Assembly: GCA_027604185.1 (NCBI GenBank)
Contig: JADGKB010000149.1
Location: forward strand, 1-27,715
Length of the DNA stretch: 27,715 bases
Direction: 5' to 3'
Origin: Boothiomyces macroporosus
Lineage: Eukaryota; Chytridiomycota; Chytridiomycetes; Rhizophydiales; Terramycetaceae
Numbering within the stretch: the stretch's first letter is position 1; the number at the start of each line of letters is the position of its first letter. Shown here in pieces: positions 2,778 through 23,135 of this stretch. Both the position numbers and the translations under genes were made by a program. Under the pieces are notes generated by a model. The model searched no databases. It saw nothing but the letters and a program-made list of their open reading frames with translations, and was not told the DNA's origin.

Positions 2778-4555
2778 TTAATCACTAGTTTTCACAATCA
2801 TTGTTACTGGAGCAACCCCTTCTATTACTACTTGCTCTTTTAAAGAATCCCTAGATTTTATTGGGAAGAGCGCCGAAGTGGACTTATTTACAACTCTGAC
2901 TTTTGAAGAGTAGCTATGTCTTCCCAGTTCTTCGAAAATTATACTAAATGTCGAAGAAACTAATCCAGCATACATCCATCCTTCCTTGTGCTGATCTTGA
3001 ATAAAGCAGGCTCCAACCCAAGCAGCAGCCAATATTCCTCTATGGGTAATTCTAAACGTTTTCCGAATCAAAGGCTTTTTATCCTCTCTGACTATTTCTT
3101 GGTGGGCCAGTGCCATTATTCCTAGCAAAAAGTAAATAATGGCAAAAGAGCCACAGTAGGTTACTTGCAAACCTCTAGTAACACTAGCTGCTGTTGAATT
3201 ACTAACGATGCTATAATTTAGAGTGTGTTCAATGTTATGACCAACTAAAGTTGCATTGTAGGTATATAGATCTTGAATGACTGTATCTTCTTCAAATATC
3301 TCCAAGAAGGTTTCAATGCAGCCAGCAAAAGCAACAAGAGCAACATAAAATGGAATATGAGAAAACTTCCACAATACTTTCCAAAATTTACTGTCATTCT
3401 CCAACGCATGAACTATAATTAGTTGCTAGTTACCAAAGAACTGTGACGTTTCCAGTCTAAAGTAAAGAAAGAAAATGTTCATTGCAATCAAGAAAAAGAT
3501 AAACACATACACAAAGAATTTGTAGGAATGCTGCTTTGAAAAGTCGGTAAGGAGACTTAAAATAAGTTCGCCAAAAATCAAAACTACAAAACCCCCTATT
3601 CTTTCGTGGTAGTGTCTGATATTGGTAACTGGATGGATTTTTGAATATTTTGATCTCCAATAGTCAAGTCCAAGCCTGCTTAGAAATTCAAACAACATTC
3701 CACACGCCCAGATAATGATTTGGTTTGTTATACCTCCATCGTATCCAGGTTTAAAAACATTGACGCTCAGGTAGAATACGGCCTGGATTCCTCTTATGAT
3801 TGGTGAATAAAGCATTTCAGTGGTGCGATAGGGAACCGAGTTGCACATTGCATACAGAATATACAATTCAATCATTAATATTGAAATTATATGACAGCCA
3901 AGAAATATTCCCGAAGTATTAACATCCGGGTCTGGGTCAAACGCTTTGATTAGAATTAATTACCATATTTCACGCAAACTGTCATTAGAATCACTACTCC
4001 AAGGACTAACGCATTAAACACCTTTCTCAACACACCCTTCTGATAAACCCAATTATTCAAATGTACAAATTCCTCCCAGTGAAAAATAAATGGAATGATC
4101 ACCAACACGTACATCCCAAATGAAATCAAATCAAAGTCCAGTAAAGTACCAACTTTTCTCATTGCTCCAGCATAAATCAAATCCACAAACAGCTCAAACC
4201 ATAGTACTTTAGCTTTCATTGTACTTTGATATATCCTGTTATTATACTCGTACTGCTTTATTTGAGGCCCCGCGTTCCACTTTCTTTTTAAATCAAAATA
4301 TTCTACATTTTCCTCTTCACTTTCTTCATCAGACGACTCTTCTTGGATTTCTTTCTTTGCTCTATCTAGGTCTTGATATAATTTTGTAACATCATAATCA
4401 GTACTGTTTCGTGACTCGACAATCAATTCTTTTATTATATTTTGATGCTTTTTAGACCCTGGGTGAATGCCAGTGCTTGAAATGTGGTATGTGTTTCCAT
4501 GAAGCGTAAGAGCGTCGTAGTTGTATTCTTTGGGGATGGAAATGTTGTTTTCCAT
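2778..4555 (-). CDS. LtrA-family (low temperature requirement A) multi-pass membrane protein
   Basis: Three exons on the minus strand: 4555-3964, 3943-3434 and 3412-2778, with introns of 20 nt (3944-3963) and 21 nt (3413-3433), giving 578 aa. Residues 1-110 are hydrophilic with an acidic stretch (EESSDEESEEE). The family signature begins at KAKVLWFELFVDLIYAGAM, matching the LtrA 'WlELFfDLvfv' motif, and a later HYHERIGGFVVLIFGE matches the conserved 'H..ERfglfvIIvlGE' motif. About eight or more hydrophobic segments follow, ending in a polar cytosolic tail. Biochemical function of LtrA proteins in fungi is unknown; bacterial LtrA is linked to growth in the cold. Both junctions restore the frame (V-K-Y-A-F-D and Q-F-F-V-H-A). 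A 549-bp spacer separates its start from the divergent GRAM gene. Confidence 0.85.
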
Positions 4556-4662
4556 TCTGTTGCTATCACTTTCGCGTAAAACAAAATATTACCTAATGGC
4601 TTAGTGTCACTAACATAGTTTAACTTTAAAATTACAATAGGAACAATTTTAATATACTATGA

Positions 4663-4681
4663 AACATACTTGATGTATGTT
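4663..4681. repeat. Inverted repeat, 7-bp arms
   Basis: AACATAC - TTGAT - GTATGTT: perfect 7-bp arms with a 5-base loop, 108 bp upstream of the LtrA start. Possible protein-binding site or chance. Confidence 0.4.
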
Positions 4682-4703
4682 GTTTAACTCAAAGAAATTT
4701 AAA

Positions 4704-4721
4704 CGTTTTACAAGTAAAACG
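4704..4721. repeat. Inverted repeat, 8-bp arms
   Basis: CGTTTTAC - AA - GTAAAACG: perfect 8-bp arms with a 2-base centre. A related half-site GCGTAAAAC occurs near 4574-4582, closer to the LtrA start. This arrangement suits a dimeric transcription factor site; function is inferred only from symmetry. Confidence 0.4.
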
Positions 4722-5104: not shown

Positions 5105-5952
5105 ATGACGCTGTCAAGGAGGAATACATATTCAAATACTCCAAAGTTGACACCAACAGTCTGGACCGATCAGATAGTGTCGGAGCGATCGCCGAATAGT
5201 GATCGCTCTTCCATGGACACCTCCAGAGAAACCTACGATTGGGATCAAATAATTGTTTCCAGAAACAGTGACTCTACAGTTTCATCCAGACCATCATCAG
5301 ATACATCATCACCAAGGACATACGCTGAATCAGTTCATGGGGAAGATTCTTCAATTTCAGCTGAAATTCAAAAGAACAAAAAGAATACCAGAAAAATGCA
5401 GCAACTGTTTGGTGACCACATTCCAGAATACGAAATCTGTCTAGCAGGTATGTTGAGTTTAACAAAGATTTCTCATGTGCACTCTCAAAGGATTTACTGA
5501 TTCGACACGGGAGGCTTTACGTTGGGAGGGAATACGTTGCATTCCACTCTCCAATTGCAAACACAAAATTTGTGATTCATGTCTCTGACATTAAAAAAGT
5601 TTCCCCCAAAACCACCATGCTGATACCGTCTGCAATGCAGATAGAAACCGACGACCTCAATATCCACCTAATGTCATTCATGTTTAGAGATAATGCTATG
5701 CAGACATTAAACACAATCATCAATGCTTATAGAAACAAAATAACCAAAGTGAATAAGCTCAAGACTGCCGCCCCAGCCGTCCAGGAAGAAGTTGCTGTAA
5801 AAAGAGTGTTTCCTTCTCCGAGCTCTCCACTAGCACCGATATTTCTTATCGGCGCTATGCTATGCATTACCATGATATTGGTAAACGTAGCTATGCTAGT
5901 TAGATCAAGTGCCCTGAACCAAATGATCCTGGCGGAATTGTCCTCATTCTAG
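5105..5952 (+). CDS. GRAM-domain protein with C-terminal membrane anchor
   Basis: Two exons, 5105-5447 and 5468-5952, with a 20-nt intron gtatgttgagtttaacaaag, give 275 aa. Residues 1-95 are Ser/Thr-rich and probably disordered. A GRAM domain follows: LFGDHIPEYEICLADFSCAL, then GRLYVGREYVAFHSPI, then a strand HVSDIKKVSPKTTMLIP and MSFMFRDNAMQTLNTI, matching the GRAMD/Ysp2 core 'LF..iP..E.l...YsCal.r....GrlYis...icFhS'. The intron falls exactly inside this core and removing it restores it. A single transmembrane segment near residues 238-258 is followed by a short tail. No VASt/StART-like domain is present, so the layout resembles short GRAMD2/3-type proteins of ER-plasma-membrane contact sites. 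AATAAA lies at 5967. Confidence 0.85.
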
Positions 5953-5966
5953 AATGTGAGCCTCAT

Positions 5967-5993: not shown

Positions 5994-6449
5994 TATAAGG
6001 TATAAATCAAACGATCATCCTTTAATTCAAATCCGTAGTGAGTGAAAAATGCATCCGATAGTCCTGTATCTACGGTTACATACAGTGGCTTTGTTTCCAG
6101 AATATCATATTTCTTTGTTCTAGCATTTTCAACCAGTTCATTCAGAAGCATTCGTGCCAGTCCTTGGTTCCTGTAAGCTGGCAACACTGCTAGCACTTTA
6201 ATTGCGATCGTATCCCCAGTCTTTTTAGAAGAAATTCCGCCAACACAGATATCATTGAAATACACTGGGTTAATAATCCGTACCTAATCTAGACTCGTTT
6301 TGTAAAAATTCATCTTGGATAGGAGTTTCAAAACAGTACTTGATTATCGTCTTTAGCTGTCCGATATTGTTGACTGTAAGATCATCAAGTGCCTTGCGAT
6401 CTTTAGGAGAAATCTTTAAATTCCCCAGCTTTTCATTCAACATTGTCAT
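5993..6449 (-). CDS. NAA50-like GNAT N-alpha-acetyltransferase
   Basis: Two exons, 6449-6284 and 6264-5993, with a 19-nt intron (6265-6283), give 145 aa. The order of motifs follows NAA50/San: an N-terminal strand-helix LDDLTVNNIGQLKTIIKYCF...PIQDEFL (compare 'v...ni.qLk.ln..iFPv.Y.d.Fy'), then VYFNDICVGGISS, the acetyl-CoA loop LAVLPAYRNQGLARMLL with the Q/R-x-x-G-x-A pyrophosphate-binding turn, and a C-terminal DAFFTHYGFEL. NAA50 acetylates N-terminal Met of peptides and associates with the NatA complex. The first ATG at 6449 is used; a second in-frame Met is two codons later. Its start codon is only 22 bp from the divergent EF-G2 start. The Tyr/His catalytic residues cannot be assigned with confidence. 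Confidence 0.75.
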
Positions 6450-6471: not shown

Positions 6472-8731
6472 ATGAAAAGTTTATGGGGAATATTTAAGCG
6501 ATATTCAAGCAGTAAAATCAGTGTCGATTCGATTAGGAATATCGGAATCATTGCGCATATTGATGCCGGAAAGACTACTACCACAGAGCGAATGCTTTAC
6601 TATGTTGGGTACACTGACAGGATTGGCAGTATTCTTTATTTAAATTAGATGTGGATGATGGATCTACAGTTACAGATTTCTTGAAAACAGAAAGGGAAAG
6701 AGGAATTACGATTCAGTCGGCGTGTATTCCTGTTTCATGGAAAGACCACAGAATCAATATAATTGATACCCCAGGACATGTAGATTTCACCATTGAAGTT
6801 GAAAGGGCATTGCGCGTCTTGGATGGTGCAGTGACCATTCTGGATGGAGTGGCAGGTGTTGAAGCCCAAACAGAAACTGTCTGGAATCAATGCAACAATT
6901 ACAAAATCCCACGCATTGCATTTGTGAACAAGATGGATAGACAGGGTGCAAACTTCCAGAATGCATTCAAATCATTGGAGAAATTGAAAGGATGGGGCAA
7001 GCCTGTCAAAACACAGCTCCCTGTTTACAGATTCAGGGATAAACTGAGTACCGATGATAGATTAGGTGGCGACTTTGAAGGTGTTATAGATTTGCTGGAT
7101 ATGAAACTTTTGGATTGGAAAAAGGATAAATCTGGCTCTATAGTTACCCGTAGTAAAGTTGAAAAAGAGCTACTGGAGGCGTGCATGACAGAAAGAGCAA
7201 ATTTGATTGAATCCCTGGCAGAAGTGGATGAAGGAATGGTTGAATGTTTCATTGAAGCTGATGACGATATTTCAAAAATCACAGGGGCGGATATTCAAAA
7301 AGCTGTAAATAGATGTACTATTGCTGGTACAATAGTTCCAGTGTTTTGTGGAGCTGCTTATAAAAACATCGGAGTACAGCCAGTCTTGGATGCGATTGTC
7401 GATTATTTGCCATCACCTAATCAAGTTCAGCATGCAATTGCAAAAACACCAACCGGACAAATTCCTATTAAAATCTCAGACAAAGATTTGTGTGCATTAG
7501 CATTCAAAGTTGTGTATGATGATAAGAGAGGGCCTCTTGTGTATGTCAGAGTGTATTCTGGAATTTTGGAATCGCGATCGCATATACAAATTTCCAACGC
7601 AAATGGAGAAAAAGAAAGAGCCATGAAGTTACTGGAAATGTACGCTGATGATTTTGAAGAGATTCCGTCAATTGAAGCAGGAAATATCGGTGTTGTTGTC
7701 GGATTGAAAAAGGTTAAAACTGGTGATACATTAACTGGGATTAAAGATAATAGAAAGCTAGAGCTGCTTAGTATTAATGTTCCGCCACCAGTATTTGTTC
7801 GTTCATGTCATGTAGAATCTGGATCTGAAGAAAAAGCCTTGGCGACTGCTCTAGAACATTTATTAAGAGAAGACCCTTCATTGTCACTAACAGTAAACGA
7901 AGAAACGGGCCAGACTTTGCTGAGCGGCATGGGAGAACTACATCTTGAAATTGCTGGTGAAAGGCTAATGGAGGTTTACAGAGTCAAGTGCAAGTTGGGC
8001 AAAGTGGAAATATCTTATCGAGAAACCATTCAAGATTCCCATTTGGAATTGATGCGCTTCAACAAAGAGTTTTTTGGAAAAGAACTAAAGTGTGAAATCG
8101 AAATGGAATTTTCTAAACCAGCGATGAACGAAATCGAAATCGACACTAGAATAAAAGGAAAGGATATTTATCAAGCAGCCCAACCAGAGTTGAAATTGGA
8201 GGTTAGTTTTACTAATTATAGTTGGTAGGTGGATACCCACCTTTAGGCGATATCGAACGCGCAATTAAAGAGGGAATTCAGAATGGTCTATCGAGAGGCC
8301 CCATATTAGGATTCCCAGTTTCGCAAATAGCAGTCAAAGTAACTAAACTTGGATTATACAGCCCTCAAATATCAAATATTTCGGCAATTAGAGCAGCGGC
8401 ACACAGCTGTGTCCAACACGCTCTAAAATCAACATCTACTAATCTATTAGAGCCAGTTATGAAAATGAAAATCAGAGTCCCGCAGCAAAATGTAGGTGTT
8501 GTATCTAGAGATTTAACTGGAAACAAAAGGGCTATTATTAGCAATATCGAAAACGTAGAAGATGTGGTAGTTATAGATTGTACTTGTCCTCTTGCTCAGT
8601 TGGTTGGATATGCCAGCAGTCTGAGAAGCATGACGCAGGGCAACGGAAACTTTGTCATGGAGCTGGAAGGCTACAACGCAGTCAGCAAGGACCAAGAGCA
8701 AGCGATTGTAAAATCAGTCAGGGGCTACTAG
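6472..8731 (+). CDS. MEF2: Mitochondrial elongation factor G2 (ribosome-recycling GTPase)
   Basis: Three exons, 6472-6628, 6649-8201 and 8222-8731, with two 20-nt introns, give 739 aa. The ATG at 6472 starts a basic, Arg/Ser-rich presequence ([15 protein letters not shown]) typical of mitochondrial import. GTPase motifs: G1 AHIDAGKT (28-35), G3 DTPGH, G4 NKMD. The segment [22 protein letters not shown] matches EF-G2 (GFM2/MEF2), not EF-G1. Domain II onwards is complete, ending with the EF-G C-terminal [22 protein letters not shown]2 splits mitochondrial ribosomes together with the recycling factor RRF. Usual length is about 780-820, so this is a slightly trimmed but intact copy. Intron positions were fixed because removal rejoins RIG-N-VDDG and [11 protein letters not shown]. 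Confidence 0.93.
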
Positions 8732-8789: not shown

Positions 8790-9570
8790 ATGGAACAAGA
8801 AAGTAATTTAATCAATGAGCTGCCACAAAGCGCTCTTGAAAAAGTAGAAAAGCAAATCTCTAGTATCTTACCAGTCAAAACAAAGGATGTCACTACCTCA
8901 CTTCACATTAAAAAGGATCCAACCAAAACCGAAAAGAAATCCTCCAGAACAAAAGTAAAGATTCGCCCAAGTGACAACCTTGGAGCCGCACCATTACCAG
9001 AGGGATATATATCCAGTCTGATGGCGAAACAACAAGCAGAGCCAAAAATTATTGCTCCAACTTCGCATGCAGAAAAAGTTCGAATTGCTCAAGAAAAAAG
9101 ACCATATATCCCCAAACCGCAAAAGAAATCTGCTCAAAATATACTAAGGGCTGCTGGCGGGGAGGTATGGGAAGATCCCACTCTTGTATATTGGGACGAC
9201 AGTACTATTTGGTTAACAATAGACGATTATAGATTATTCGCTGGGGATTTGGGAAATGAAGTGACGGATGAGTTATTGGCAAAAGCGTTCTCTAATTATC
9301 CTTCAGTGTTGAGGACGTATGTGGTACGCGATAAAAAGTCACTCAAATCCAAGGGATACGGGTTTATCAGTTTTGGAGATCCTGATGATTATGTGAGAGC
9401 AATGAAGGAAATGAATGGTAATATCCGTTTAATAATTAGGCAAATATGTCGGTAACAGACCTATTACTTTGAAAAGAAGTAATTGGAAAGATAGACAGGC
9501 GGATGCAACTAATATTGCTAGACAAAAGGAGCTGGCCGAAGTTGCCAAGAACCCTATTAAAAAGTATTAA
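8790..9570 (+). CDS. RBM42-like RRM RNA-binding protein
   Basis: Two exons, 8790-9417 and 9440-9570, with a 22-nt intron (9418-9439), give 252 aa. Residues 1-140 are Lys/Pro-rich and low complexity, ending in an AAGGEVWEDPTL segment typical of RBM42 just before the domain. A single RRM covers about 145-225: RNP2 RLFAGDLGNEV, RNP1 KGYGFISF, and the restored last strand KYVGNRPITLKRSNWKDR, which is a hallmark of RBM42 ('VGSRPIKLRKS.WKDR'). RBM42 binds hnRNP K and associates with the spliceosomal U4/U6.U5 particle in animals. The restored second exon also rules out a shorter product. The stop lies inside TAATAAA. Confidence 0.9.
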
Positions 9571-9747: not shown

Positions 9748-12700
9748 ATGTTTATAGACAGGATACTGGAGCTGAGTCTTTTAGAAGCGAATCCGGGTAT
9801 ATTATCATTAAACAACTAGAGTCAAACATTTTACACGAATTCCCGTTGGATGTCAAGTGTATTTTAATATCCAAAGTCAATCATTTTATCCTGACACCAC
9901 CTAGCAATGTTAACCCTTCAGATATACTTACATCTCCTGCGCATGTGAAATTTGTAATGGAGTTCATTGGACAAGGATTTAATCTTCCTTTGGAAAATAT
10001 AAAGACAATAAGCGACGGGTTAAATATATATTCGAACTGGTTACAGCAACCGGATACTAGACCTATCATAATTAAGCAGCTAGGAATAGAGTCGGAAATT
10101 ACTCAGAAATATTTTCAGACGATATTCAAACATATTTCGTTATTATTCCGCGCGCGAACTGCTGCAATGAAAACGCTGGAAGAATTGAATGAGCACATTA
10201 ACGAGCTTATCAGTCTCTGTGAAAAAATACTGGCATCGTTGAGGGTGTTTGTACAGGAAAATAAGGATAATTTGACTGAAGAAACTTGGATGGTTTTGCT
10301 CAAAGTGCTCTTGGGAACTTGCGATACAATATTACGATCACCAATAGCAAAGCAAATTAATACTGCCAACCAGAAAACACATGAATTATCTACTGAGCAA
10401 GTCAACTCGGTAATGGGAGATAAGCTCTGCGAAGCATTGATAAGAGTAACTTTAAACTAACCAGACCCTACTAGAAATATGGTACGAATCAAAGTTGATT
10501 TCAATTGACATGTTTGATCGACTAAAGGTAATACCATTCCAACGTAGGCTCACTTTATGACATGGACTCATCGAGTTCAAATGGTTAATCAATGGTGCGT
10601 AGAAGTATTGAATCTTACCAGAATCGTTATTGCTGAAACCTTGAAAGCCAATATATATGGGGATCACTCCGATTACAGTCTGTAATACCTATTTAAATTA
10701 GTGCATCTATTCCATTGGATGAATTCATTCCTGAAAGAGATTATATATTTTATGCTTGGCATAGAACGATCTGTAAGTACAATTTAATTCAGATATGATT
10801 CAGAACCCAATTGAACTAGAGGCATTAAATTTCCAAACAGCAATATACGGACTATCAAAGCTGGTTGACGAATTACATGCATTCGATGTGGAAATCCTCC
10901 CAGAGGTACATGATTTGTAACATTTGAAAATTACTATAACAGAATCTATTGTAAATGGGAATACACTCCTAAGAATGTTTGGGGAATGGTTGTTTGATGC
11001 GTCAGCAGTAAGTAAACCGGGATATGAAGCTGGGAGAGCTGAGGCCTTGGCTATTTTATGCCGCATATTCAACAAACTGCAGAGATATGAAAAGTTTCAT
11101 GACGCATACTTGGAAAAGTTCTATTTGGTTCTCCAAAAAGGACTAAAAGCAGACTTTCTATCTCTGACTTCAATTATTTTGAACAGCAGCAGATTGTTTT
11201 CGAATGAATTATCCGGCTTCAGGATGCTATTTCCAGATTATATTCAGTCACTTTCTAGAATAATACCAATTATTCAAGCAGCTCCACAAGACTTCTTTGG
11301 ACAAAAAATAGATTTGGATGAATTGAGGAGAGGTGCGTATGTTGTACTATCCGCGATGGTTTTTTCGTTGGATGGGTTCAAGTATATTGAAATCGATCAT
11401 TTGCCATACCAATCTCAAAGCAATGCTTTGAGCGCGCAGTTTGCAACGATGGTAGCGCATACTAATACTAGGCCAAGGATCTGTACAAATTTGATCATGA
11501 ATCAGGTCTGACATTTGAAATGGTAGCGAAACAGCTAATTTAGTTGAAGGAAAATGTTCTGACGTTATTTTTGGAAGCATTGGTTTCAGAATCCAATATT
11601 AAGAATTGCCGATACATTCTAAACTTAATATCCTGCTATGCTGTTCATGAATCCAAAAATACCCCAGATATTTACGTTGTTTTTATCAAAATCATTCAAG
11701 AAAAGTTGATGCTAAGCGAGCACTGGTCACAGGAAATTATACTCGCAGCATTTGATTTACTGTCTCTAATTTCTGTGAATATGCCGATAGAAAACGAGAA
11801 TTGCGAAGTAATTAATCTTAATCTAGAAATGTGCCAGAGATTTGACTATCAGCATCTGCCACTATGTTGAGCAGCTCTTAAAATCAGATAACCTAGTTGC
11901 AATTCAAAGCAGAATAGTCCGAGCTTTTGATTTAATTGCCAAATGGTCTCTTTTAGGTGACTGGCTCCAAGGCGATTCAGGCGCAAAGAAGATTGTCGTT
12001 GGAGCTCTGATAAGAGGGGCCACGATTTTGGATAGAGAAAATCCGTACTCTTCCGTCACACCAAGAAGTACCGAACCGCCTGAGGTTCAAAACAAGTATT
12101 TATCGGCGGTAACAATGGCGGCACTCTCAAAGCTTTCTGATTCTTTGAAGGCAGAGGCCCCAGGTATTAATCAATCATCTTTTTCAAATACGATCAATGT
12201 ATTCCTTCAAGCGAATTCCGCTGTAAACTCTGCTAGAATCAAAAAGCCTCTGCCTAGAGTTAATCCCTCAACGAAAAAGTTTGGCAGACTGCGTTTAAGT
12301 TATCAAAACTCTGGAATTAACATGGTGAGCACCGGATCAAAAGATGGAGGGTTTGGGCTACCAACATTTGCAGTTTTATCTACAGAAATTCAGATTAAAA
12401 GTGCAGCAGAATCTGCACTATCACTGCTGTGGATTAGATTAGGCAACTTTCCTCCCAAAATGTCGTGTCTTGGAATTGCCCAATTGAACTCTGCTTGGGA
12501 TGAATATAAAGAGTCAAAGAGGCTGGCCAATGCCCGGCACGCATTACAAACTACATTCCCAGACGAGCCAAAACCAATTTCAGACGTGCATGGGATGATT
12601 CGATATTTTGGATACCAGAAAAGACTAATTTTGGGATTCGTTGAACGCCCTCAATGGGATAAAGGATACACTTCCATACATTCACCAACTATTGCAGTTT

Positions 12701-14177
12701 CATTCAGAGATTCTAATGGTTACTTTTCATGGTTTGGAGAGTTTCAATATCTTTCATCCAGCCATGGAGTCAAAATGAGGCATTCCAACTACTGCTCTCC
12801 AACAACTTTGGACTCTCCTGAAGCAGTAGTCGAACCTCCTGAACAAGAAAAGTCCGAAATTGTCAAAGTACACTTTACACCAAGCAAATATCCAACTACT
12901 GGGAACTCTTTGTCTATAATTGAGCTCAAAAGTATAAATGAACGAAATATTCCTGAAGTTGATAGCTGCTTCCTTTCCACTCCTGATTTGGCAGCAGCCA
13001 GTAGCTTTATCGATATAATCAGCGAGGCAGAAGTTTTTGAAAACTCTGTTTCAACTGAGGGTCAAATGTACTTTAAATTAACCCTAGATCTTCTGTCGCT
13101 AAACCACACCCGGTTGTAAATGCAATCAGCAATTCTTACTTGTAATTTTGCAGTAACTCTAGACCACAAATTTACCGATTGTTTATGGCCACGATGGGAG
13201 TGCTGGATTATCAGCCAAATTATAACCTAATTCTATCCCCACTTCCTATAAGTGATTCACTGCTTAGTGATCTAAGAAAGTTGGACAAGATATCAGAGTA
13301 ATTAGCACTAATCCCAGGCGAGATTGTTATTCAATATCCGTTATTTGTTGTAATTCAGGAGACGATTCCCTGTCTTTGATTTTAGAAGCATCCGACGCTA
13401 TCAGCAAAGAGTATGAAGCTTTTCTTTGGTCGCTGGGAAGTCCAATTCATCTCAACTCTCATCTAGGCTACAAAGGCAACCTGGACGCTAGTGTTTGTCC
13501 CGTAGCTCCTTATTTCAGTAATATCAACATGCAAGTGATATTCAATGCCCCATATCTATTTAAAAAACATACTACTGGCAATAGGCAGTTTTCGTGGGCG
13601 AAATTCCACAAAGGATTAGTAACTACGGAGGCAGGAGGGTCAGTTGAAGACTTGACCCGTGTGTCCATCGAGAACCACAAACAGCGACCAAGAGCGCAAA
13701 CCGTACTGATCAATCAAAATGAAACAGGAAAGGATACCTTCGAGTGGGTTTTAGAAAGGGATTCAGTTGTTATTCTATGGATCGAGGATTTGCATAATGT
13801 ACTCGCATTTTGTCAGGAACTGCCAGCCAATATTATAGCGATATTAGCAGTCCATCCTCTAATTAATTCTAAAGGACTATATACTATCAAAATTATTGGG
13901 CGTCCAGGAGTCTTGGAAGATGTGCTGGTAAAAATGTGTTAAATTAGAACGCTGGCCCTCTCTTGGACGACAATGTCATTGCAGAAGAAAGTTTGGCAAC
14001 TTTGGTAAGGCACACGGCTGTAAATATCTATAAATCGAATCTAATAAGCAAGAATGGATACAGACGACCGTAAGCTGTAACTAATATAGAAATATGGCAA
14101 GGAGACAAGCAATCGAAGAGCTATGCAACAAGCACACTGGTCAAAATGGTATATATGCAAATCTATTTTCAAAATAA
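9748..14177 (+). CDS. RALGAPB: Ral GTPase-activating protein subunit beta homologue
   Basis: Fifteen exons: 9748-9796, 9820-10445, 10465-10527, 10548-10681, 10702-10772, 10793-10905, 10927-11482, 11506-11522 (a 17-nt micro-exon), 11544-11807, 11827-13067, 13088-13141, 13163-13297, 13318-13927, 13948-14069, 14090-14177. The product is about 1380 aa (human about 1490). Fourteen introns of 19-23 nt were placed by phase and by alignment from memory to RALGAPB: EFPLDVKC, LLEIWYES, MFGEWLFDA, GYEAGRAEALAILCRIF, KFYLVLQKGL, ILNSSRLF, DELRRGAYVVLSAM are all recognisable. The C-terminal third (FLWSLGSP..., VVILWIEDLHN, HPLINSKGLYTIKI, GPLLDDNVIAEESLATLVRHTAVNIYK) is the Rap/Ran-GAP-like domain. In animals the beta subunit supports the catalytic alpha subunit, which inactivates RalA/B upstream of the exocyst and TORC1. 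One intron (10906-10926) seems to end in TTG, not AG. The stop overlaps AATAAA. Confidence 0.85.
10906..10926 (+). other. Probable 21-nt intron with non-AG 3' end
   Basis: The RalGAP-beta frame is open on both sides in the same phase but is broken by a TAA at 10918-10920. A stretch starting GTACAT after a GAG codon and containing TGTAAC then ATTTG has the length (21) and TAAC spacing of the other introns, but ends in TTG. No AG acceptor in the neighbourhood gives a workable phase. A T-to-A sequence error at 10925 would restore a normal TAG end. Confidence 0.5.
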
Positions 14178-14178
14178 A
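14173..14178 (+). terminator. AATAAA overlapping the RalGAP-beta stop
   Basis: The final codons read AAA TAA A, embedding AATAAA across the stop. Confidence 0.5.
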
Positions 14179-14244
14179 CTCATTTTCACTGCAAATACGT
14201 CATGAAACGCGAAAGTAACTAACACTTTTTTAATTCCACATAGC

Positions 14245-14750
14245 ATGTCGAGTCTATACAAGGAACTAAAAGCAGATTTCGAATCGCTAATAGACCAATG
14301 TAAACAAACCAAATTGGAAAATGAGCGTTTGTTTCAGGACTATCAATCAAGAGTACTAAAAGAATTCTCTGCCATCACAAAGGAGAGAACCCTGTTTGAA
14401 GACAACTGGGAGAAGCATTTACGTGAAATAAGACTAGGAAAAGCCATACTAGTAAGTCGAATTAACCACAGCGTAAAGAAATTGAAGTAGATGAAAAGGA
14501 AATCAATGAAGATTCGTTTTGTGATTCCAGCAATACACTATTTACAGAAGACGCATCTACAAACCAAGACGAGCAGTATGAATCCGAAGATGATTCACAA
14601 GAATTCGCGCTAAATCAGCTACATTCGTTTCATGCGCAAAAAACAATTAAAAGAAAGTTGAGATACAAGATGCATGACAAAATGAGAACTGTGACTGTTC
14701 AAAGCCTTGGGAAAATTATGAAAACCTTTGACTTGAATGAAGCTAACTAA
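14245..14750 (+). CDS. Small coiled-coil protein of unknown function
   Basis: Two exons, 14245-14451 and 14472-14750, with a 20-nt intron gtaagtcgaattaaccacag, give 161 aa. I do not recognise the family. Residues 1-75 form a strongly charged helix with heptad-like spacing, likely a coiled coil (LYKELKADFESLIDQCKQTK onwards). Residues 80-125 are acidic, Ser/Asp/Gln-rich and probably disordered. The C-terminus is basic and helical, KRKLRYKMHDKMRTVTVQSL, ending LNEAN. The layout (coiled coil, acidic linker, basic helix) would suit a kinetochore or chromatin subunit, but this is a guess. The stop lies inside TAATAAA, and the convergent trefoil gene stop is 12 bp away. Confidence 0.7.
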
Positions 14751-14754
14751 TAAA
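14749..14754 (+). terminator. AATAAA overlapping the coiled-coil gene stop
   Basis: AATAAA shares two bases with TAA at 14748-14750. Confidence 0.5.
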
Positions 14755-14761
14755 TTTACAT

Positions 14762-14767
14762 TTTATT
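14762..14767 (-). terminator. AATAAA overlapping the first trefoil gene stop
   Basis: On the minus strand the end reads CAA TAA A, so the stop is inside AATAAA. It faces the plus-strand signal at 14749 with 7 bp between them. Confidence 0.5.
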
Positions 14768-15902: not shown

Positions 15903-16104
15903 TTCTATCAGATTCTGGATTGATTGTAAAAGTTTAAAAGAGCCGTTTGTTTGCTACGCCAAATAGTGCCTCATAGATGAAGCCCCTTTTCGACGCCCAC
16001 ATTCCAACCGCGGTGGATTGTTGATGTAACAAAATGAAACAAGAGGGTGTAATCAAAGAGCATATTAATATATGAAACAGATAAGCATTATAGTAAACTC
16101 AAGC

Positions 16105-16110
16105 TTTATT
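16105..16110 (-). terminator. AATAAA overlapping the second trefoil gene stop
   Basis: The end reads CAA TAA AGC on the minus strand, embedding the stop in AATAAA. Confidence 0.5.
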
Positions 16111-17065
16111 GCGGATAGTTGGGGGAGTAGCCCGAAGGTGGAGGAGTGTTATTATAATTTGGGTGATAATTTTGTGGTTCTACATGCGGTTGAGGGTAAG
16201 CCTCATAGCTAGTTCCAACAGCACTACCAGAATACTGTTGGTTATATTGGGGGTTGTAATATCCAGCAGCACTTGGATCGTAATAATCAGCTTGAGCGTG
16301 CGGGTATCCAGCCTGCGATGTTGGATATCCAGCATTCGAAGGAGTGTAACCCTGTGCTGGTGGATAATAATCGGCTGGGTAAGCTGGATCAGGATATGCA
16401 TTGGTAGGATAAGGTGCAGGTGCAGAAACAGGTGCAGGAACAGGTGGTTCAGGCTTTAAAGTAACAGGTCTTTGAATAGTATATTCAGCAAATTGAGGAG
16501 CAGGCTCTGGAGCAGCAGCAAAAGGACTGGCTTTTGGAACTAGAGAACCACCACCATTTCCACCATTAGCTGCAAGGTCTATTTTACTCGCTGCTAATTT
16601 TTTTGATTTTGAAATATTATGATACATTAAAGTTCCGATTCCAAATGCAACGAAAAATGCACCAATACCAATACCTACCCACGCACCGCTAGAAATCCCA
16701 CTGGATGCCGTGGTTGAATCTGCATTTGTAGCGGTAGCGGTTGGAGAGCTTGTTGCAGTAGTTGCAGATGGAGTAATAGTCTGTGGTGTGTTGGTTGTCT
16801 TTGCTGGCAAAGTAGTCGTAACTGGGTCAACAGTTGTGGTTGGCGCAGCAGTAGTTTGGGTGTCAGTAGTATTTGATGAAATTACTGGCTGGAAACATGA
16901 AGGAGTGAAGCTAAAAAGTCCTTGGTCTTCCCAACAACAACCCTTATTTGTACAAGACTTTTGAGAAGTGAATTTGTTTCCGCAATCAACTTTTTGTGAG
17001 TTATCCACAGCGCATTGATCATTTTGTGCAAGGACTGATACTACAAGCAGTAGTAACTTGAACAT
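16106..17065 (-). CDS. Trefoil (P-type) domain single-pass membrane protein, copy 2
   Basis: 319 aa, one exon, paralogue of the downstream gene. A signal peptide (about 1-14) is followed by the trefoil cysteines C18-x9-C28-x9-C38-x4-C43C44-x12-C57F, with GCCW in place of GCCF. A Thr-rich stalk (60-120) ends in the same SGISSG motif as copy 1, then a transmembrane segment (about 129-148). The cytosolic tail is Pro/Tyr/Ala-rich, with loose repeats such as AGYPTSQ, AGYPHAQ, AGYYNPQ. Only the module order and the juxtamembrane motif are conserved between the two copies; the tails have diverged, which suggests an old tandem duplication with different cytosolic partners. Surface location and ligand binding are inferred. 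Confidence 0.8.
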   Translation of the reverse strand: MFKLLLLVVSVLAQNDQCAVDNSQKVDCGNKFTSQKSCTNKGCCWEDQGLFSFTPSCFQPVISSNTTDTQTTAAPTTTVDPVTTTLPAKTTNTPQTITPSATTATSSPTATATNADSTTASSGISSGAWVGIGIGAFFVAFGIGTLMYHNISKSKKLAASKIDLAANGGNGGGSLVPKASPFAAAPEPAPQFAEYTIQRPVTLKPEPPVPAPVSAPAPYPTNAYPDPAYPADYYPPAQGYTPSNAGYPTSQAGYPHAQADYYDPSAAGYYNPQYNQQYSGSAVGTSYEAYPQPHVEPQNYHPNYNNTPPPSGYSPNYPQ

Positions 17066-17413
17066 TCTTTTCTATTTTTTACAAAGTCCGCCATTGACTG
17101 CTTCTCTTTTATGTGGAGCCCGATCCTTTGTTTCATGTTGGAATTCAAAAATCCTCATGCTGCCATGAGATATTTTGTCAATTCCAGGCTATGTATTCTA
17201 TCCTTTACATTCCTCAACGCGGTAGCCTTAGCTCAAAATGAAGAGATGCGATTAGAATCAACTAGCGAGTATGCTACATATATCGGTTAGTTTCAATGAT
17301 GGTAGACGTGTGTTTATCCAGAAGATTGCTTCCCGACCAGCTTGCATTATTACAATCCCATTAAGACTATCTATCGGCAGATTAGTATCTAAAGAACTCA
17401 TTTAACACATACT
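17066..17413. other. Spacer between trefoil copy 2 and the MCUR1-like gene
   Basis: 348 bp upstream of trefoil copy 2 and downstream of the minus-strand MCUR1-like gene. A TATA-like CATAAAAG lies at 17106-17113 on the minus strand, 40 nt from the trefoil ATG. A short plus-strand ORF with a signal-peptide look is at 17135-17290 and is listed separately. Nothing else is recognisable. Confidence 0.4.
17135..17290 (+). CDS. Candidate small secreted protein
   Basis: A 51-codon plus-strand ORF. From the second Met (17165) it has a signal-peptide shape: basic start MRYFVNSR, hydrophobic core LCILSFTFLNAVALAQ, then a polar Glu-rich stretch. Two 20-nt GT...AG candidates near its end (17286-17305 and 17315-17334) could extend it by a Cys-containing exon, but neither has the usual TAA branch motif, and the second does not fit the frame directly. 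There is no homology I recognise. It sits in the promoter region of trefoil copy 2 on the other strand. It may be real or a chance ORF. Confidence 0.25.
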   Translation: MLEFKNPHAAMRYFVNSRLCILSFTFLNAVALAQNEEMRLESTSEYATYIG

Positions 17414-17418
17414 TTATT
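17413..17418 (-). terminator. AATAAA overlapping the MCUR1-like stop
   Basis: The end reads GAA TAA AG on the minus strand, embedding the stop in AATAAA. Confidence 0.5.
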
Positions 17419-18087
17419 CAACAGAGGCAGTTTCTTTTTTAGAATGAAAAGGTTGAAATCTAACCACCATCTTGTACGCAACCAGCATTACAAAAATAGT
17501 CAGTAAAAACCCTGTATTAAATAGACTTACTTGACACACTATTCTTTGTGCCATTTTTAATCTTTGCCATTCTAACTTCTAATTTATCCACTTGCGTATC
17601 AATCTTTTCCTCTGCCAGTTCCAATTGTTCCAACAACTCTGTGGCTTCCAATTGAATCCTTGATTTTTCCAAATTCATGTCCAACCTAACACCAGCATGA
17701 ACCCGCTTGATATCATCTCTAATATTTCCCTTAACTTTTTCTACATCAAACTTTATTCCATCCAAATTAGATTTTAACAATCCAAAATCTTTTTGTTCTA
17801 ATAATTTAATATCTGTTTGTAGTCTCTTTAATTCTGATTGTGATTCTCCCATGAATTTCTGTTGCTCTTTTTTCAACACTGCATTAATGAGTAGTACCTA
17901 GTCCTTTTGAACTTGCTTGTAGTGATTCGTCTATTACTTCTGATATTAGGGTAACAATTGCTTCTGCTTCTGGTTTTTTGAATCCTTCTGCAGTTAGTAT
18001 GTTGATGTATTGCGACACTTCAAAATTCTGTCTTTCCGAAGTGTAGTATCTGATTGATTTATGTATTAATCGACTAACGAATTTCAT
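17414..18087 (-). CDS. MCUR1/CCDC90/Fmp32-family mitochondrial coiled-coil membrane protein
   Basis: Three exons on the minus strand, 18087-17898, 17878-17531 and 17511-17414, with two 19-nt introns, give 211 aa. A basic N-terminus MKFVSRLIHKSIRYYTSER looks like a mitochondrial presequence. The head domain (about 23-55) matches the family: YINILTAEGFKKPEAEAIVTLI. A long coiled coil follows with the signature LEQKDFGLLKSNLD and IRDDIKRVHAGVRLDMNLEK. The third exon adds a C-terminal transmembrane segment (FLLTIFVMLVAYKMVV), essential for the family layout. Relatives are MCUR1 (regulator of the mitochondrial Ca2+ uniporter) and yeast Fmp32, linked to cytochrome oxidase and proline metabolism. 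Which role applies here cannot be told from sequence. Confidence 0.9.
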
Positions 18088-18140
18088 GATTCTGATTTAC
18101 AAAAAGTCACGAGGAATAGGTTTAGGATGATTTCAAGATT

Positions 18141-18255
18141 TTTAAAGTTTGAAATTAAGTTTGCTAACCTTAAAGTTATAGTTTTAAAGCTAGATGATTT
18201 GAATTTAAAGTCAAGTTAGTTGAAAGTTAAAAGCCAAGATGGTTGAAAGTCAAGT
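18141..18255. repeat. Degenerate TTNAAAG(T) repeat cluster
   Basis: Six imperfect copies of a T/A-rich unit around AAAG begin near 18144, 18172, 18186, 18207, 18223 and 18246 (for example TTGAAAGTTAAA and TTGAAAGTCAAG). Spacing is irregular. The cluster fills the 198-bp gap upstream of the MCUR1-like gene. It may be a decayed satellite or clustered factor sites. Confidence 0.4.
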
Positions 18256-18285
18256 ATAGCACTATTTCAAGTTAAATACAATATA

Positions 18286-18579
18286 TTAACAAATGATGAC
18301 AGCCAATAGCGACAAGGATAAAAGGTATTCGTTTCTCATTCCCCCACTGACAACTTTGGGTGTTTTGGTTGGCATTTGAGAAGGCATATAAGTTTGCTGG
18401 GGAGTCATCCCAGTTTGCTTTGTTTTTGGCGACTTTGTTTTAGGAGTCTTTGCTCCAGTGGCAGTTGGATTGTAAGTACCATTTGGACTGCCAGTAATTG
18501 ACGGAGCCATGTCAGTTGCAGTCACTGTTTTCTTTGCATTAATGGAAACCGCAGATAAAAGGAATATAGTTGATCGCAT
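18286..18579 (-). CDS. Small secreted Thr/Pro/Lys-rich protein, likely GPI-anchored
   Basis: 97 aa, one exon. A signal peptide (MRSTIFLLSAVSINA, about 1-15) is followed by a Thr/Pro/Lys/Ser-rich body with short repeats (TPKTKSPKTK, TPQQTYMPSQMPTKTPK) and no cysteine. The C-terminus has the GPI pattern: small residues VVSGG (76-80), a short polar spacer, then a hydrophobic tail YLLSLSLLAVII. It is probably a cell-wall or surface protein. A TATAAATAA box is 22 bp upstream of the ATG. Its 3' end shares a 12-mer with the fungalysin gene end instead of using AATAAA. No family is recognised. Confidence 0.65.
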   Translation of the reverse strand: MRSTIFLLSAVSINAKKTVTATDMAPSITGSPNGTYNPTATGAKTPKTKSPKTKQTGMTPQQTYMPSQMPTKTPKVVSGGMRNEYLLSLSLLAVIIC

Positions 18580-18994
18580 TGGTAGTTTGTATTCAGCTCT
18601 GTTATTTATACCACAACCAAAAGAAAGTGCTTTTTAGAAGGTTACTGACTATTTTATTATATCATTAATGGTAGGGGTATCAAGATTCCTTGATCTTTTG
18701 AAGCCTTGCTTTTATACCATGGAAAAAGTACCTGTGGGCTTGGAAATTCAAAGAAACTCTTTGAGCACTTGCAATAGCCAAGATAATCCATAAATTTCAG
18801 TTTGATGAGTTGTGCTTTGAAACACTCTAGAGTAGCTATTCCTTCATTGCCTTACCATCTCTGCGCAAAACTTAGACTACTGAACAACTTATTCAAACAA
18901 AGTTTCTCTTGCGGATAAAAGACTTGTCTGATAAAGTATCTTGTAAAATATAACTTTCTCAAAACCAAGTTTTTATTTTTTTACTGAAGCTTTT
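18580..18994. other. Divergent spacer between the GPI-type gene and the PAN-repeat gene
   Basis: 415 bp holding the TATA box above and an AAATATAA-type element about 45 bp before the PAN gene ATG. A 41-codon ORF (18668-18793, +) is present but has no supporting features. No RNA gene is seen. Confidence 0.4.
18602..18610 (-). promoter_or_regulatory. TATA box of the small GPI-type gene
   Basis: TATAAATAA on the minus strand, with 22 bp to the ATG. With usual TATA-to-start spacing, the transcript would begin within a few bases of the start codon. Confidence 0.5.
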
Positions 18995-21900
18995 ATGCTA
19001 CTGTTGCTTCCAGTAGCGTTTGCATACACTTTTTACGGATTCAATGCCCAGATTGATAAAATAAACAACTTTACAGTACTGTCAGCAAAAGGATGTGAAT
19101 TTGGCTCCATTCAGCAAAAGTCTACAGTTAGTTTAGAACAGTGTAGGAGTAGCTGTCTTCAGGATAAAGCCTGCACAGCATTTGCATTCTCTAATAATTG
19201 TGTACACTACTATTTCACTCTTCCAACGCTTCCAGTGTATTCAATCAAAAATACAGAGTGTGGGTAAATGCAGTTAATTTAGTGTTGTTCTGGATCGAAA
19301 CCCAAATTGTCAATTCAAAAGCACAATAGTATATTGCTCAAAGCCAATCGTCGATCGATATTCAGTCATTAGCTTTGTTGAGCAAAAAGTACTTGTTGCA
19401 ACCTCCAACTTTTCGTTAAGCATTGCGGATATAGGCACCTCAAATTTGCAAAACTGGAATCCTATATTTAACGGATTCAAATTCAATATTAACCTTTTGA
19501 ACACTCTTTTATGTATCAACGCAGAGCTGAGATTATCAGCTTGTGAAGGATATCCATGGACAATTAGGTTTGACGGCTATAGCAACTTTATAGAATATGG
19601 AACAAAATGTTTGACCGGATCTAAGCTTATTTCTATTGGAGAGTGTAATGACCCATTGAGTTTATGGGATTTTCTTCCAAACTTTACCATTGGTCCCATA
19701 TTTTCTGGGCCTAGATTATATTCATACGGTAATTTTGCAATTGGAAGCTGTAATTTCCATTTCATTGAAAATCCCATCAAATTAGGATTTGCAGATTGCT
19801 ACAATCGTTGCATTGAAACAAGTATTCACTATTAACACAGACTGTACGGTATTCAACCACAATCCGGATATCCCAGCTTGTTATCTTGGTTATGAAAAGT
19901 TTAAAACTTATTTGACACTGCCAGGTACTGATGTATGCTTGTAAGTATTATGTAATGATAGCATGCAAATTCCCAAAGATTGCCAAGTTACCCGATTTGA
20001 TGATATTATGTGTCAAGGAACTGAAATGTAACTATTTATAATGGTAGAAGTAATCAAGTTATGTATATGGGTAATTACTTTACGAAGCAAACAGATTTAC
20101 TCTTTGGCCAGGGGTATCAGTTCTTGGGAATACCAGAAAAAGTCATGAATATCAGTCTATCTGCTTGCCTTAATACGTTCATCAATTCTAGTACGACTAT
20201 ATTGATGTAGACTATACTTGCTTTACTTTTGACAACAATTTCTTTCAAGAATGCAAGTTATTCAGCTCATATGTGTATGCGAATACTCTACAGGTTGGCG
20301 GGTATTTCGTTTCTGCACTCTCTCTTTCAAGAAACCCTTCGTGTAGTTTAAAGAACGATACAATGACTTGCACATCAGATAATCACGTCAACTATTTAAG
20401 CTTTGATATGATTAGAAATGATGATGTGCTCTTCAAAAATGATTGTATGATATTTGGCAACTTCTATTTGAATACCACTTCAGATGACTGCAGTCTCTTG
20501 TGTAGAAATAGTCCTGTTGATTCTCAGTGTATGGCATTTTACTATGAAGGCCCGAACTGCTATCTGTTCAACTCCAAAGTCGAAAATTATAATTTTCTGA
20601 GTCGGAACGGATCTACTTGCGGGTAATAATATTCTAAATTAGACTGGTAATGTCTCATAATACAGACTGTATACTGGATGCAAATAATTACTATTGCGCT
20701 CCTGGAACCACAATTTATAATTACAAGTAACAGCGTACTGATTTAGCCATTCTGTGTCTATTAATGGAGTTGGCCTAAACTATTCATCTACTTATTACTC
20801 TGGAATCTGTTTTTTCTCCAATACACCAGACAAATTGATCAGCAACCTAGATAATATCCCATGTTACAAATTTTGTGCCAGAGATAGTCGTAAGTATTAT
20901 TAATGTAGTGTGCACTGCATACATAACATTGGGTTTTGGCTGTTACCTATATTATGCTACAATCCCTTACTTGACACTTCATCAATTACCACCTCCTGAC
21001 CCAAGGTATAGCTGGACTCTGAAAGCCATTCAATGCGGGTATTTGAAATTTGATTATAGATTTCTTCCCGACAGGAATTTATGCTTTGACGATGGCCGCT
21101 GTTCTCCATTATTGTCCAACCGTAAAACGCTTCCGCCCAAGCCATCTTACGACGATATATCATTTACTTTAACCAATTATAGCAAGATTTACATACACCT
21201 CGTTCTAGTTAACAGCACAGCAGATTTTATTGCTGGCAATCAGACGGTTTATCATGGGGACTGTGCGCTAGATGGATTGCCTTCAAAATCATTTTCAAGC
21301 AATTACTCTACGTGTATAGAAACATGTGTGGATCAAGGTGAATCTAACTAATTTAGGTTGCTCCTATTTTAGTTACAAAAGTAATTCTTGTTCGTTTTAC
21401 ACCAAATTCCACCCAACAAAATCTGAAACCTCTAATTGTGGGTTTGTATATGAAAATTCAGAATGCTACATCAATGATTCAGTTAAATGTCCTACTATTG
21501 ACAATTATTCTACATTCACACTCAACTCGCTCAATTTTCAAATGGTCCAACAGAACGATGTCATGTACTCAAACAATTGTAGGTTCTATTCTTATCCAAA
21601 TACTGACAATCACTTTATAAAGTATTTTGAATGCAGTGAATTGTGCCAATCAAACTCTGCATGTTATTCGTTTTCTTGGGCACCATGGGGTGAATGCTTT
21701 ACCTACAGTTATGATATGAGTCTAAGTATTGTTGTGCCAAACACAAATGGATGGAGATGTGGTTATTTGATATCCAGGAACAAGTGTCTAGTCGAAGGTA
21801 CAAATATCAAGTGTATGCCATTGCAACCATTACTTTCTCCAACGATTTCTTCTATGGGAACAATTAGTGCTCATCCTACTACTGTAGCAAGTGTTTTTTC

Positions 21901-22378
21901 TTCAATGTCTTTCAACGGATCAGATACTACAGCTCTACCAAATCAAATGGATCTCGCAACATCAGTGCCAAGCAACATCGCCTCTTTGGATTCATCCGAA
22001 AATACTGTACAAACAGTAAACGGGCCAACTACAAGTATTAATCAAGCCGCAACAACCATAATTGAAAATCACTCGGCCAAGAACACACCCATCAACAATA
22101 AGCCTCAACCTTCAGATCCGAATTCAAATGAAATCTCTGCAAAGTTAATTGCAATGGTCGTGGGTATCTGCTCGGCAGTAGTATTATTATCATTGGCAGG
22201 TATTCAACGTTACTATAAAACCAACAAAGATCCGCTTCCGCCACAAGATTTTATTGCATTATCAAAAGAGAATGACGACGCATTAAATCCAAGATCACCA
22301 TATAAATATGATAGCAAAGGAATCAGATTTATGTCCAATTATTCTTCAAACGAATCACGGAATGGCAAATTGTATTAA
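18995..22378 (+). CDS. PAN/apple-like repeat single-pass surface protein
   Basis: Ten exons: 18995-19263, 19283-19821, 19841-19940, 19962-20027, 20048-20190, 20211-20622, 20643-20726, 20747-20889, 20909-21337, 21357-22378. Nine introns of 19-21 nt; product 1068 aa. A short signal peptide (MLLLLPVAFA) is followed by about seven Cys-rich modules with the PAN pattern C...C-x3-C-x5-C...C...CG. Module 1 has C34, C50, C54, C60, C69 and C89. Between modules recurs a C-x6-9-C linker. About 90 Ser/Thr-rich residues form a stalk, then a transmembrane helix AMVVGICSAVVLLSLAGI and a polar tail of about 70 residues. PAN domains bind proteins or carbohydrates, so this looks like an adhesin or receptor. Introns inside modules are all phase 1 and those between modules all phase 2. 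There is no AATAAA at its stop; see the next gene for a possible fusion. Confidence 0.8.
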
Positions 22379-23135
22379 TTGTAGAAAGAGAGCTTGCACC
22401 AGTCAATTCCAACGATAGTGGTCAAAATGTGTCTTCAATTATTAAAAGACAGAGGTTACTGAATTCTGCAATCAATAGGGAATATGAAGATATATATAAA
22501 CAGCTACAAGAGATCCCCCAAGACCAATTTCAGTATGTTGATGAGGAGAGCATATACTTGTTTACGGATTCCTCAGGCATGGAGTTGTTTATTCAACTAG
22601 TGAACGCATTCATATTCCCTAATGGGAAATTTAGAGTAACTAAATCTAACTCCAGGTTGATGAAGACAAATGTATTGAAGGGACTAATTTTAAAGCAGGA
22701 CAGGAAATTGAAATCATTAAACACATCTTTAATGGTTATTTCGTTTCAAATGAAAACAATATTTACCCTGTATCAATTATTCCAGCAAACAAAATTCCCA
22801 CGCTAATTCTGGTGATATTCCTTGATGAACATCTTATTAATTTGGATGAAATGATAATCAACTATGCAATTGAGCATTTTGGGGACAAGATTATGATGCA
22901 TATTGTTTCGGATATCCAAAGCTTTGATCCTGAAAACTACATCAGAGATGGCATATTCAAATCTATATCCGATTCAAAGAAAATTCTGATTAAAGGCGAG
23001 CAAGAACTTGTTGGAGTAGTTTCATTGTACTTGGATGCAATCACAGATAAAATATGGACTTACTTTGACAAGACTGTTGTGACGAATAACTTTAGCTTAG
23101 AGGAGTGTATAGCATCTTACAATCCTTTTGAATAA
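22362..23135 (+). CDS. Unknown alpha/beta protein; 5' end uncertain, overlaps or fuses with the PAN gene
   Basis: Certain part: exon from about 22403 to 22635, a 20-nt intron gtaactaaatctaactccag, and exon 22656-23135 ending in TAA inside AATAAA. The restored frame runs NGKFR-VDEDKCIEGTNFK and on to IPTLILVIFLDEHLINLDEM. The 5' end is unclear because the frame has no ATG before 22579. Option A: ATG at 22362, exon 22362-22380, a 22-nt intron 22381-22402 (243 aa), which overlaps the PAN gene coding end by 17 nt. Option B: a 17-nt intron 22372-22388 fuses it to the PAN protein as a cytosolic domain. The pattern of alternating strands and helices recalls longin-like folds, but I do not recognise the family. 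Confidence 0.55.

Follow-up and report, generated by a model that had tools for sequence, protein, structure and literature searches.

Contig JADGKB010000149.1 of the chytrid Boothiomyces macroporosus (Rhizophydiales, Terramycetaceae; assembly of 15.2 Mb in 216 contigs), all 27,715 nt of which we refer to as the window, carries ten genes whose reading frames are interrupted by segments that look like extremely short introns. Our gene models place 34 GT...AG segments of 19-23 nt in these ten genes, the same count as in a sequence-only reading that preceded our analysis; nine are 19 nt long, eighteen 20 nt, five 21 nt, one 22 nt and one 23 nt, so that the 20-nt mode of that reading stands and its figure of seventeen at exactly 20 nt becomes eighteen. 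The four introns that it had quoted as examples (5448-5467, 6629-6648, 8202-8221 and 13928-13947) all belong to the curated set. Once the 34 segments and one 21-nt GT...TG segment are excised (GT...AG ends in 34 of the 35 removed), each of the ten genes runs from ATG to stop without an internal stop. The genes and introns are listed below with the evidence in brackets, where "exact" and "equivalent" refer to the splice-blind alignment described after the list; P0001 is the published B. macroporosus protein for elongation factor G 2, P0002 and P0122 are from Terramyces, P0124 is from Globomyces, and P0004 and P0121 are further orthologues.

2778..4555, minus strand: gene for an LtrA-family membrane protein; two introns, complete spliced frame, Pfam LtrA match across both junctions
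3413..3433, minus strand: 21-nt intron of the LtrA gene (gene finder, frame)
3944..3963, minus strand: 20-nt intron of the LtrA gene (gene finder, frame)
5105-5952, plus strand: GRAM-domain gene; one intron
5448..5467, plus strand: 20-nt intron of the GRAM gene (gene finder, frame; GRAM match 97-194 crosses the junction)
6449-5993, minus strand: GNAT acetyltransferase gene; one intron
6265..6283, minus strand: 19-nt intron of the GNAT gene (gene finder, frame; two of three GNAT models above cut-off cross the junction)
6472..8731, plus strand: gene for mitochondrial elongation factor G 2 (EF-G2); two 20-nt introns
6629..6648, plus strand: 20-nt intron of EF-G2 (exact with P0002 and P0004; skipped by the published model)
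8202..8221, plus strand: 20-nt intron of EF-G2 (exact with P0002; gap three nt too long with P0004; spliced in published P0001)
8790-9570, plus strand: RRM-protein gene; two introns
9202..9222, plus strand: 21-nt intron of the RRM gene (exact with P0122; missed by the gene finder, read-through possible)
9418..9439, plus strand: 22-nt intron of the RRM gene (gene finder, frame; RRM match crosses; seven extra residues here in P0122)
9748..14177, plus strand: RapGAP-domain (RalGAP-like) gene; 13 canonical and one non-canonical short introns, orthologues P0121, P0122 and P0124
9797..9819, plus strand: 23-nt intron of RapGAP (equivalent with P0124)
10446..10464, plus strand: 19-nt intron of RapGAP (exact with P0124)
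10528..10547, plus strand: 20-nt intron of RapGAP, without TAAC or TAAT (exact with P0124)
10682..10701, plus strand: 20-nt intron of RapGAP (gene finder, frame; P0124 gap off by a few nt)
10773..10792, plus strand: 20-nt intron of RapGAP (exact with P0124)
10906..10926, plus strand: 21-nt GT...TG segment of RapGAP (removal needed to match Terramyces)
11452..11471, plus strand: 20-nt intron of RapGAP (exact with P0121 and P0122)
11523..11543, plus strand: 21-nt intron of RapGAP (exact with P0121)
11808..11826, plus strand: 19-nt intron of RapGAP (exact with P0121 and P0122)
13068..13087, plus strand: 20-nt intron of RapGAP (gene finder, frame; poorly conserved region)
13142..13162, plus strand: 21-nt intron of RapGAP (gene finder, frame; P0122 alignment off by one nt)
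13298..13317, plus strand: 20-nt intron of RapGAP (equivalent with P0121 and P0122)
13928..13947, plus strand: 20-nt intron of RapGAP (exact with P0121)
14070..14089, plus strand: 20-nt intron of RapGAP (gene finder, frame; P0122 and P0124 off by one nt)
14245-14750, plus strand: small gene without a Pfam match; one intron
14452..14471, plus strand: 20-nt intron of the small gene (exact with P0121)
18087-17414, minus strand: CCDC90-like gene; two introns
17512..17530, minus strand: 19-nt intron of the CCDC90-like gene (signal scan, frame; Pfam match crosses)
17879..17897, minus strand: 19-nt intron of the CCDC90-like gene (signal scan, frame; Pfam match crosses)
18995..22378, plus strand: large cysteine-rich gene, its product apparently a secreted protein with a single transmembrane stretch; removal of the nine introns restores the frame throughout
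19264-19282, 19822-19840, 19941-19961, 20028-20047 and 20191-20210, plus strand: introns 1-5 of the cysteine-rich gene (frame)
20623-20642, 20727-20746, 20890-20908 and 21338-21356 (the last with a GTG donor), plus strand: introns 6-9 of the cysteine-rich gene (frame)
22579-23135, plus strand: gene with one intron; true start possibly further upstream
22636..22655, plus strand: 20-nt intron of this gene (signal scan, frame)

Of the 34 introns, 26 have TAAC or TAAT close to the acceptor, as the earlier reading had said of most of them, against 91 of all 706 GT...AG 19-22-mers on the two strands of the window. Pfam matches cross both junctions in the LtrA and CCDC90-like genes, the sole junction in the GRAM and GNAT genes, and one of two in the RRM gene. 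For sixteen introns, including all nine of the cysteine-rich gene, the evidence consists of frame, signals and in part Pfam.

The remaining eighteen lie in genes that we aligned with their EF-G2, RRM and RapGAP orthologues (P0002, P0004, P0121, P0122 and P0124), using a dynamic-programming protein-to-genome aligner that is blind to splice sites: gaps of at least 8 nt, with no maximum, may open at any place and in any phase, and GT and AG carry no weight. Thirteen of the 34 introns fell on identical coordinates or on alternatives that leave the spliced DNA unchanged (6629-6648, 8202-8221, 9202-9222, 9797-9819, 10446-10464, 10528-10547, 10773-10792, 11452-11471, 11523-11543, 11808-11826, 13298-13317, 13928-13947 and 14452-14471); the remaining five were shifted by a few bases, fused with a neighbouring gap, or masked, as at 9418-9439, where the Terramyces model retains extra residues. 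A 29-nt candidate at 10446-10474 gave way to the 19-nt 10446-10464 on the Globomyces protein. That protein, P0124, is identical at 590 of 1335 aligned RapGAP residues, and since only four of its 17 gaps are exact, the other gaps are no evidence. Human proteins were too diverged outside conserved domains for such alignments, in which spurious gaps abounded and the wrong strand also scored appreciably. The EF-G2 product is 100% identical to P0001, 81% to P0002 of Terramyces sp. JEL0728 and 61% to the Globomyces pollinis-pini protein.

Does the class extend beyond the window? Our sample comprised the window and, from each of 20 other contigs, a 10-kb stretch (bases 10001-20000) unselected for content, 227.7 kb in total. 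A codon-usage gene finder with flat intron lengths of 12-100 nt and no splice-signal model called 36 GT...AG introns of 15-25 nt, 14 of them exactly 20 nt long, while five decoy dinucleotide pairs in place of GT...AG gave 8, 14, 8, 8 and 8, with 1-3 at exactly 20 nt each. With donor, branch and acceptor weights trained on 17-26-nt introns and flat lengths of 12-300 nt, the scan called 107 introns of 19-22 nt (26, 52, 15 and 14, in order of length), against 1, 0, 0, 1 and 2 for the decoys, and none of 12-18 or 23-27 nt. At 28-300 nt its 45 calls show no excess over the decoys (57, 71, 50, 68 and 43), so there is no detectable class of long introns, though rare long ones are possible. The sample, 227.7 kb of 15.2 Mb, thus has a narrow single length peak. 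As 91 of the 107 lie outside the window, spread over the 20 other contigs, the description of these introns as genome-wide is supported. Ninety-one per 200 kb extrapolates to ~6,900 introns in the genome, a figure that may have to be roughly doubled, since the signal scan regains 16 of the 34 curated window introns.

Several candidates did not survive. Counting the motif GT...T[AG]A[CT]...AG by length alone gives a weak peak (41 and 38 at 19-20 nt, against 28.4 and 26.8 when shuffled). Signals or orthologues resolved each of the five window "introns" of 77-144 nt from the codon-only finder into a gap between genes or into short introns, one or two in number. Eight more, of 91-259 nt, from the signal scan (up to 300 nt) we take for fused genes, short introns run together or a spurious model on the antisense strand.

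The 107 introns are uniform in length and signals. The donor is GTA in 105, with A at position 4 in 72 and T at position 6 in 56, position 5 being nearly uninformative; the last exon base is G in 54, and the base before the acceptor AG is T in 68, C in 25 and never G. In 98 of 107 the presumed branch A is nt 14 (53 introns), nt 15 (37) or nt 16 (8); counted back from the intron end, it is 5 nt away in 46 introns and 6 nt away in 43, together 89 of 107. Both branch spacings are thus nearly fixed, and with 2-3 nt between branch motif and AG in 86 introns, no polypyrimidine tract fits in between. Towards the middle, intron sequence is near background. Window, orthologues and genome sample together thus uphold the earlier picture of a compressed donor, branch point and acceptor.

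The machinery that would remove such introns appears conventional. Searches for the U1, U2, U5 and U6 small nuclear RNAs (snRNAs) found U6 and two U2 genes above cut-off and U1 at 68.8 bits against a cut-off of 69.5; their recognition sequences read as canonical (U6 ACAGAGA, U2 GTAGTA at both loci, U1 ACTTACCT), and the TAAC or TAAT motif of the 26 window introns can pair with U2 GUAGUA. The two U2 genes (L002 and L003; 142 and 135 bits) are clearly distinct and have identical branch-recognition sequences. We also found U2AF35, SF1, Prp8, Isy1, Cwc25 and U2AF65, the last with RRM1, RRM2 and UHM. Loss of early-recognition factors of the nucleomorph or mikrocytid type is therefore not seen, U1, SF1, U2AF35 and U2AF65 being present, and the suggestion of altered U2, U2AF or SF1 components finds no support at the level of recognition sequences and of the presence of these factors; the sole divergence that we saw is at the Isy1 N-terminus. 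Several of the splicing-factor genes carry the same kind of intron: 19, 20 and 19 nt in U2AF65, with a fourth of 19 nt read by eye; 19 and 20 nt in U2AF35, with one of 19 nt read by eye; 21, 21 and 22 nt in the part of Prp8 examined; and 24, 22 and 21 nt in the SF1 gene model. A 43-nt "intron" in SF1, which we take to encode QUA2, is coding instead, and SF1 reads through cleanly with 18-24-nt introns only. The Cwc25 domain gives equal match scores on two contigs (L044 and L045; C49 and C100), reflecting a recent duplication or separately assembled haplotypes.

Our analysis thus indicates, with a probability of about 0.88, that the 34 segments are true U2-type introns, probably shrunk to ~20 nt across the genome and removed by an apparently conventional major spliceosome. 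Since an ultrashort class and the standard factors occur together, this spliceosome probably works at its steric floor. We picture U1, U2, SF1 and U2AF as reading the whole intron as one unit, in which case neither spacing could be shorter if the 5' splice site is to meet the branch A and the 3' AG is then to reach the active site; deletions would push introns down to this floor, and purifying selection against shorter ones would keep the length.

A number of observations weigh against this reading. The Isy1 gene has a 46-nt intron (L040, 1761-1806), backed by the proteins of two relatives, Boothiomyces sp. JEL0838 and Globomyces sp.; the spliceosome can thus handle more than 20 nt, and longer introns are not wholly absent, as they would be from a strictly ultrashort-intron lineage; with the 24-nt intron of SF1, it also confines to the window the earlier statement that no intron exceeds 23 nt. 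The RapGAP segment 10906-10926 (GTACATGATTTGTAACATTTG) must go if the product is to match Terramyces (KITITES...), yet it ends in TG, either as a rare non-canonical acceptor or through a single-base error. Long introns with other signals could escape weights taken from 17-26-nt introns, and the orthologue proteins, being published predictions, may themselves owe something to models of splice sites. U5 snRNA and RED (RED_N) gave no match in searches that had no positive control, and an SPF45 query matched only an RBM39-like RRM-RRM-UHM gene. Excision from mRNA is something that we infer from DNA, and the steric floor and the deletions are proposals.

How do other explanations fare? That the breaks are sequencing or assembly indels, or the genes decayed, could be argued from the frames, which are broken again and again, and from segment 10906-10926, which has no AG acceptor. 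However, each break consists of an entire GT...AG module of 19-23 nt, usually with its branch motif, rather than a slip of 1-2 nt; excising the modules restores the orthologous protein; and the class recurs at 91 sites in 20 other contigs and in essential splicing genes. We consider this explanation scarcely credible. Uniform length and signals, together with the two of 107 introns that exactly duplicate another, might instead suggest recent copies of a mobile intron-making element (introner). Yet near-identical copies, the mark of such elements, are not seen beyond what shuffling gives: mean identity of intron cores is 0.323, both as observed and when columns are shuffled, and 2 of 1847 core pairs reach at least 85% identity against a mean of 1.98 in shuffles. 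Since the cores are no more alike than shuffled ones, the introner reading is disfavoured and, in our view, very improbable.

Two further alternatives accept true introns and differ in mechanism. A bypass of U2AF, with use of SPF45, has been proposed for those human short introns whose polypyrimidine tracts are truncated (PMC8363638), and a comparable bypass in Boothiomyces would suit the 2-3 nt between branch motif and AG, too little for a tract. We find it unlikely, given that U2AF35, all three U2AF65 domains and SF1 are present and SPF45 was not detected. Short length could also be selected directly, through the cost or speed of expression, with no deletion bias meeting a steric floor; this predicts a narrow length peak equally well, but not so readily the sharp stop at 19 nt, with none of 12-18 nt called, or the two nearly fixed internal spacings. 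We judge it rather unlikely, since stop and spacings point to a mechanical limit, whatever the driving force above that limit may be.

If the conventional spliceosome does operate at such a limit, the active site offers a possible clue. In Stentor, introns of 15-16 nt are conjectured to be tolerated as two elements of the active site, the Cwc25 plug and the Isy1 N-terminus, are unconserved (PMC9505925). The first 14 residues of Boothiomyces Cwc25 are the same as in human (MGGGDLNLKKSWHP). Isy1, on the other hand, starts with MAPKTLAQKQE in both Boothiomyces species instead of the usual MARNxEKA (L040, from 1225), its first exon being ambiguous, with a 22-nt intron in our gene model against 49 nt implied by the published relative. 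Among the best 120 of 502 Isy1 homologues, 63 have the canonical start and most of the other 57 just start at a later methionine (M-L/F-x-R/K-F/W); among the matches listed, those from Boothiomyces, Globomyces and Gorgonomyces, along with a few metagenome models, have clearly different starts. The gene of this splicing factor is also where the 46-nt exception sits, the other introns found being of 19-24 nt. A tie between Isy1 divergence and short introns would be a lead, not a result. Tentatively, and with more doubt than confidence, we suggest that loss of the Isy1 N-terminus, convergent with Stentor and with the Cwc25 plug kept, may have made a standard U2AF-bearing spliceosome into a nearly fixed 14+6-nt ruler.

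Short introns are already partly implicit in the databases. The GenBank EF-G2 model (P0001) splices 8202-8221 and starts at MKNVDDG..., without the GTP-binding loop encoded just upstream of 6629-6648. The RapGAP model of JEL0838 has six short introns exactly, a 95-nt gap where we place two, and a 174-nt gap across which it fuses to the next gene. The Terramyces model P0122 fuses the RRM and RapGAP genes and, around residue 203, has an extra SAELIIG where B. macroporosus has intron 9418-9439 (22 nt); we read these residues as a retained 21-nt intron; the trait is therefore probably family-wide. The earlier warning that gene finders would miscall almost every gene thus goes too far, in that many short introns are in published models, and is apt in that P0001, P0121 and P0122 appear seriously wrong at such introns, the last two, which belong to other species, as judged without their DNA.

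Elsewhere in the window, 26836-24914 gives an intron-free reading that looks like a secreted metallopeptidase, presumably fungalysin-type (M36) from its HELTHG motif. The adjacent 17065-16106 and 15902-14763, also intron-free, encode secreted-type proteins alike in build, with an N-terminal cysteine-rich domain that we take to be trefoil-like, a stalk rich in Thr, a single hydrophobic stretch and a tail rich in Pro and Tyr. An Rfam search of the window gave no match.

Fungal introns are usually more than twice as long as ~20 nt, microsporidian intron minima lie near 23 nt, and nucleomorph introns have GT-AG ends. The introns of chlorarachniophyte nucleomorphs, of 18-21 nt (PMC10245619) and mostly 18-20 (PMC5014332), share their length class and narrow distribution with those of Boothiomyces, but sit in a relict endosymbiont nucleus, whereas Boothiomyces is a 15.2-Mb fungal assembly with U1, U2AF and SF1. 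Stentor coeruleus, for which U2AF1 and U2AF2 are listed and the Isy1 N-terminus is unconserved (PMC9505925), is alike in its narrow ultrashort class, U2AF and Isy1; its branch A is at nt 10-11 and its Cwc25 lacks the Gly-rich plug, unlike the branch A at 14-16 and the human-identical Cwc25 start of Boothiomyces. Mikrocytids, with introns of 16-17 nt and a highly reduced spliceosome (224 predicted introns in M. mackini; PMC10245619), are similar in uniform length and conserved signals, whereas in Boothiomyces most factors sought were found and extrapolation gives thousands of introns. Microsporidia, within or next to Fungi, also have relatively short introns (PMC10245619), but few of them and a reduced spliceosome. 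Cryptococcus neoformans has many short introns with a mean of 63 bp and mention of a 20-40-nt bin (PMC11913375, PMC8476143), against a mode of 20 and no detectable long class here, and the introns of the ciliate Paramecium, about 25 nt (PMC5014332), are ultrashort genome-wide as in Boothiomyces and slightly longer. Boothiomyces introns lie near the lower extreme known for organisms in general, those of Stentor and mikrocytids being shorter. Among the matches listed from open-licence papers we found no intron lengths for Boothiomyces or Terramyces and no 20-nt class in a fungus; Boothiomyces adds one more independent lineage to those at the lower size limit of introns and, as far as our searches go, offers the first 20-nt class described genome-wide for a fungus.

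For the clade itself, a practical consequence is that published gene models are damaged, as where the GTP-binding loop of EF-G2 is gone with a 20-nt intron unused. More generally, ultrashort introns have so far been a feature of relict nuclei, reduced parasites and ciliates, and 20-nt introns, thousands of them by extrapolation, in a fungus with recognisable standard factors move the question of the minimum intron close to yeast and human biochemistry: how can U1, U2 and U2AF share as little as 20 nt, and what in them has to change? If the proposed role of Isy1 is true, the 20-nt introns of Boothiomyces would be an intermediate step towards the 15-nt limit, where one of two active-site protrusions must go.

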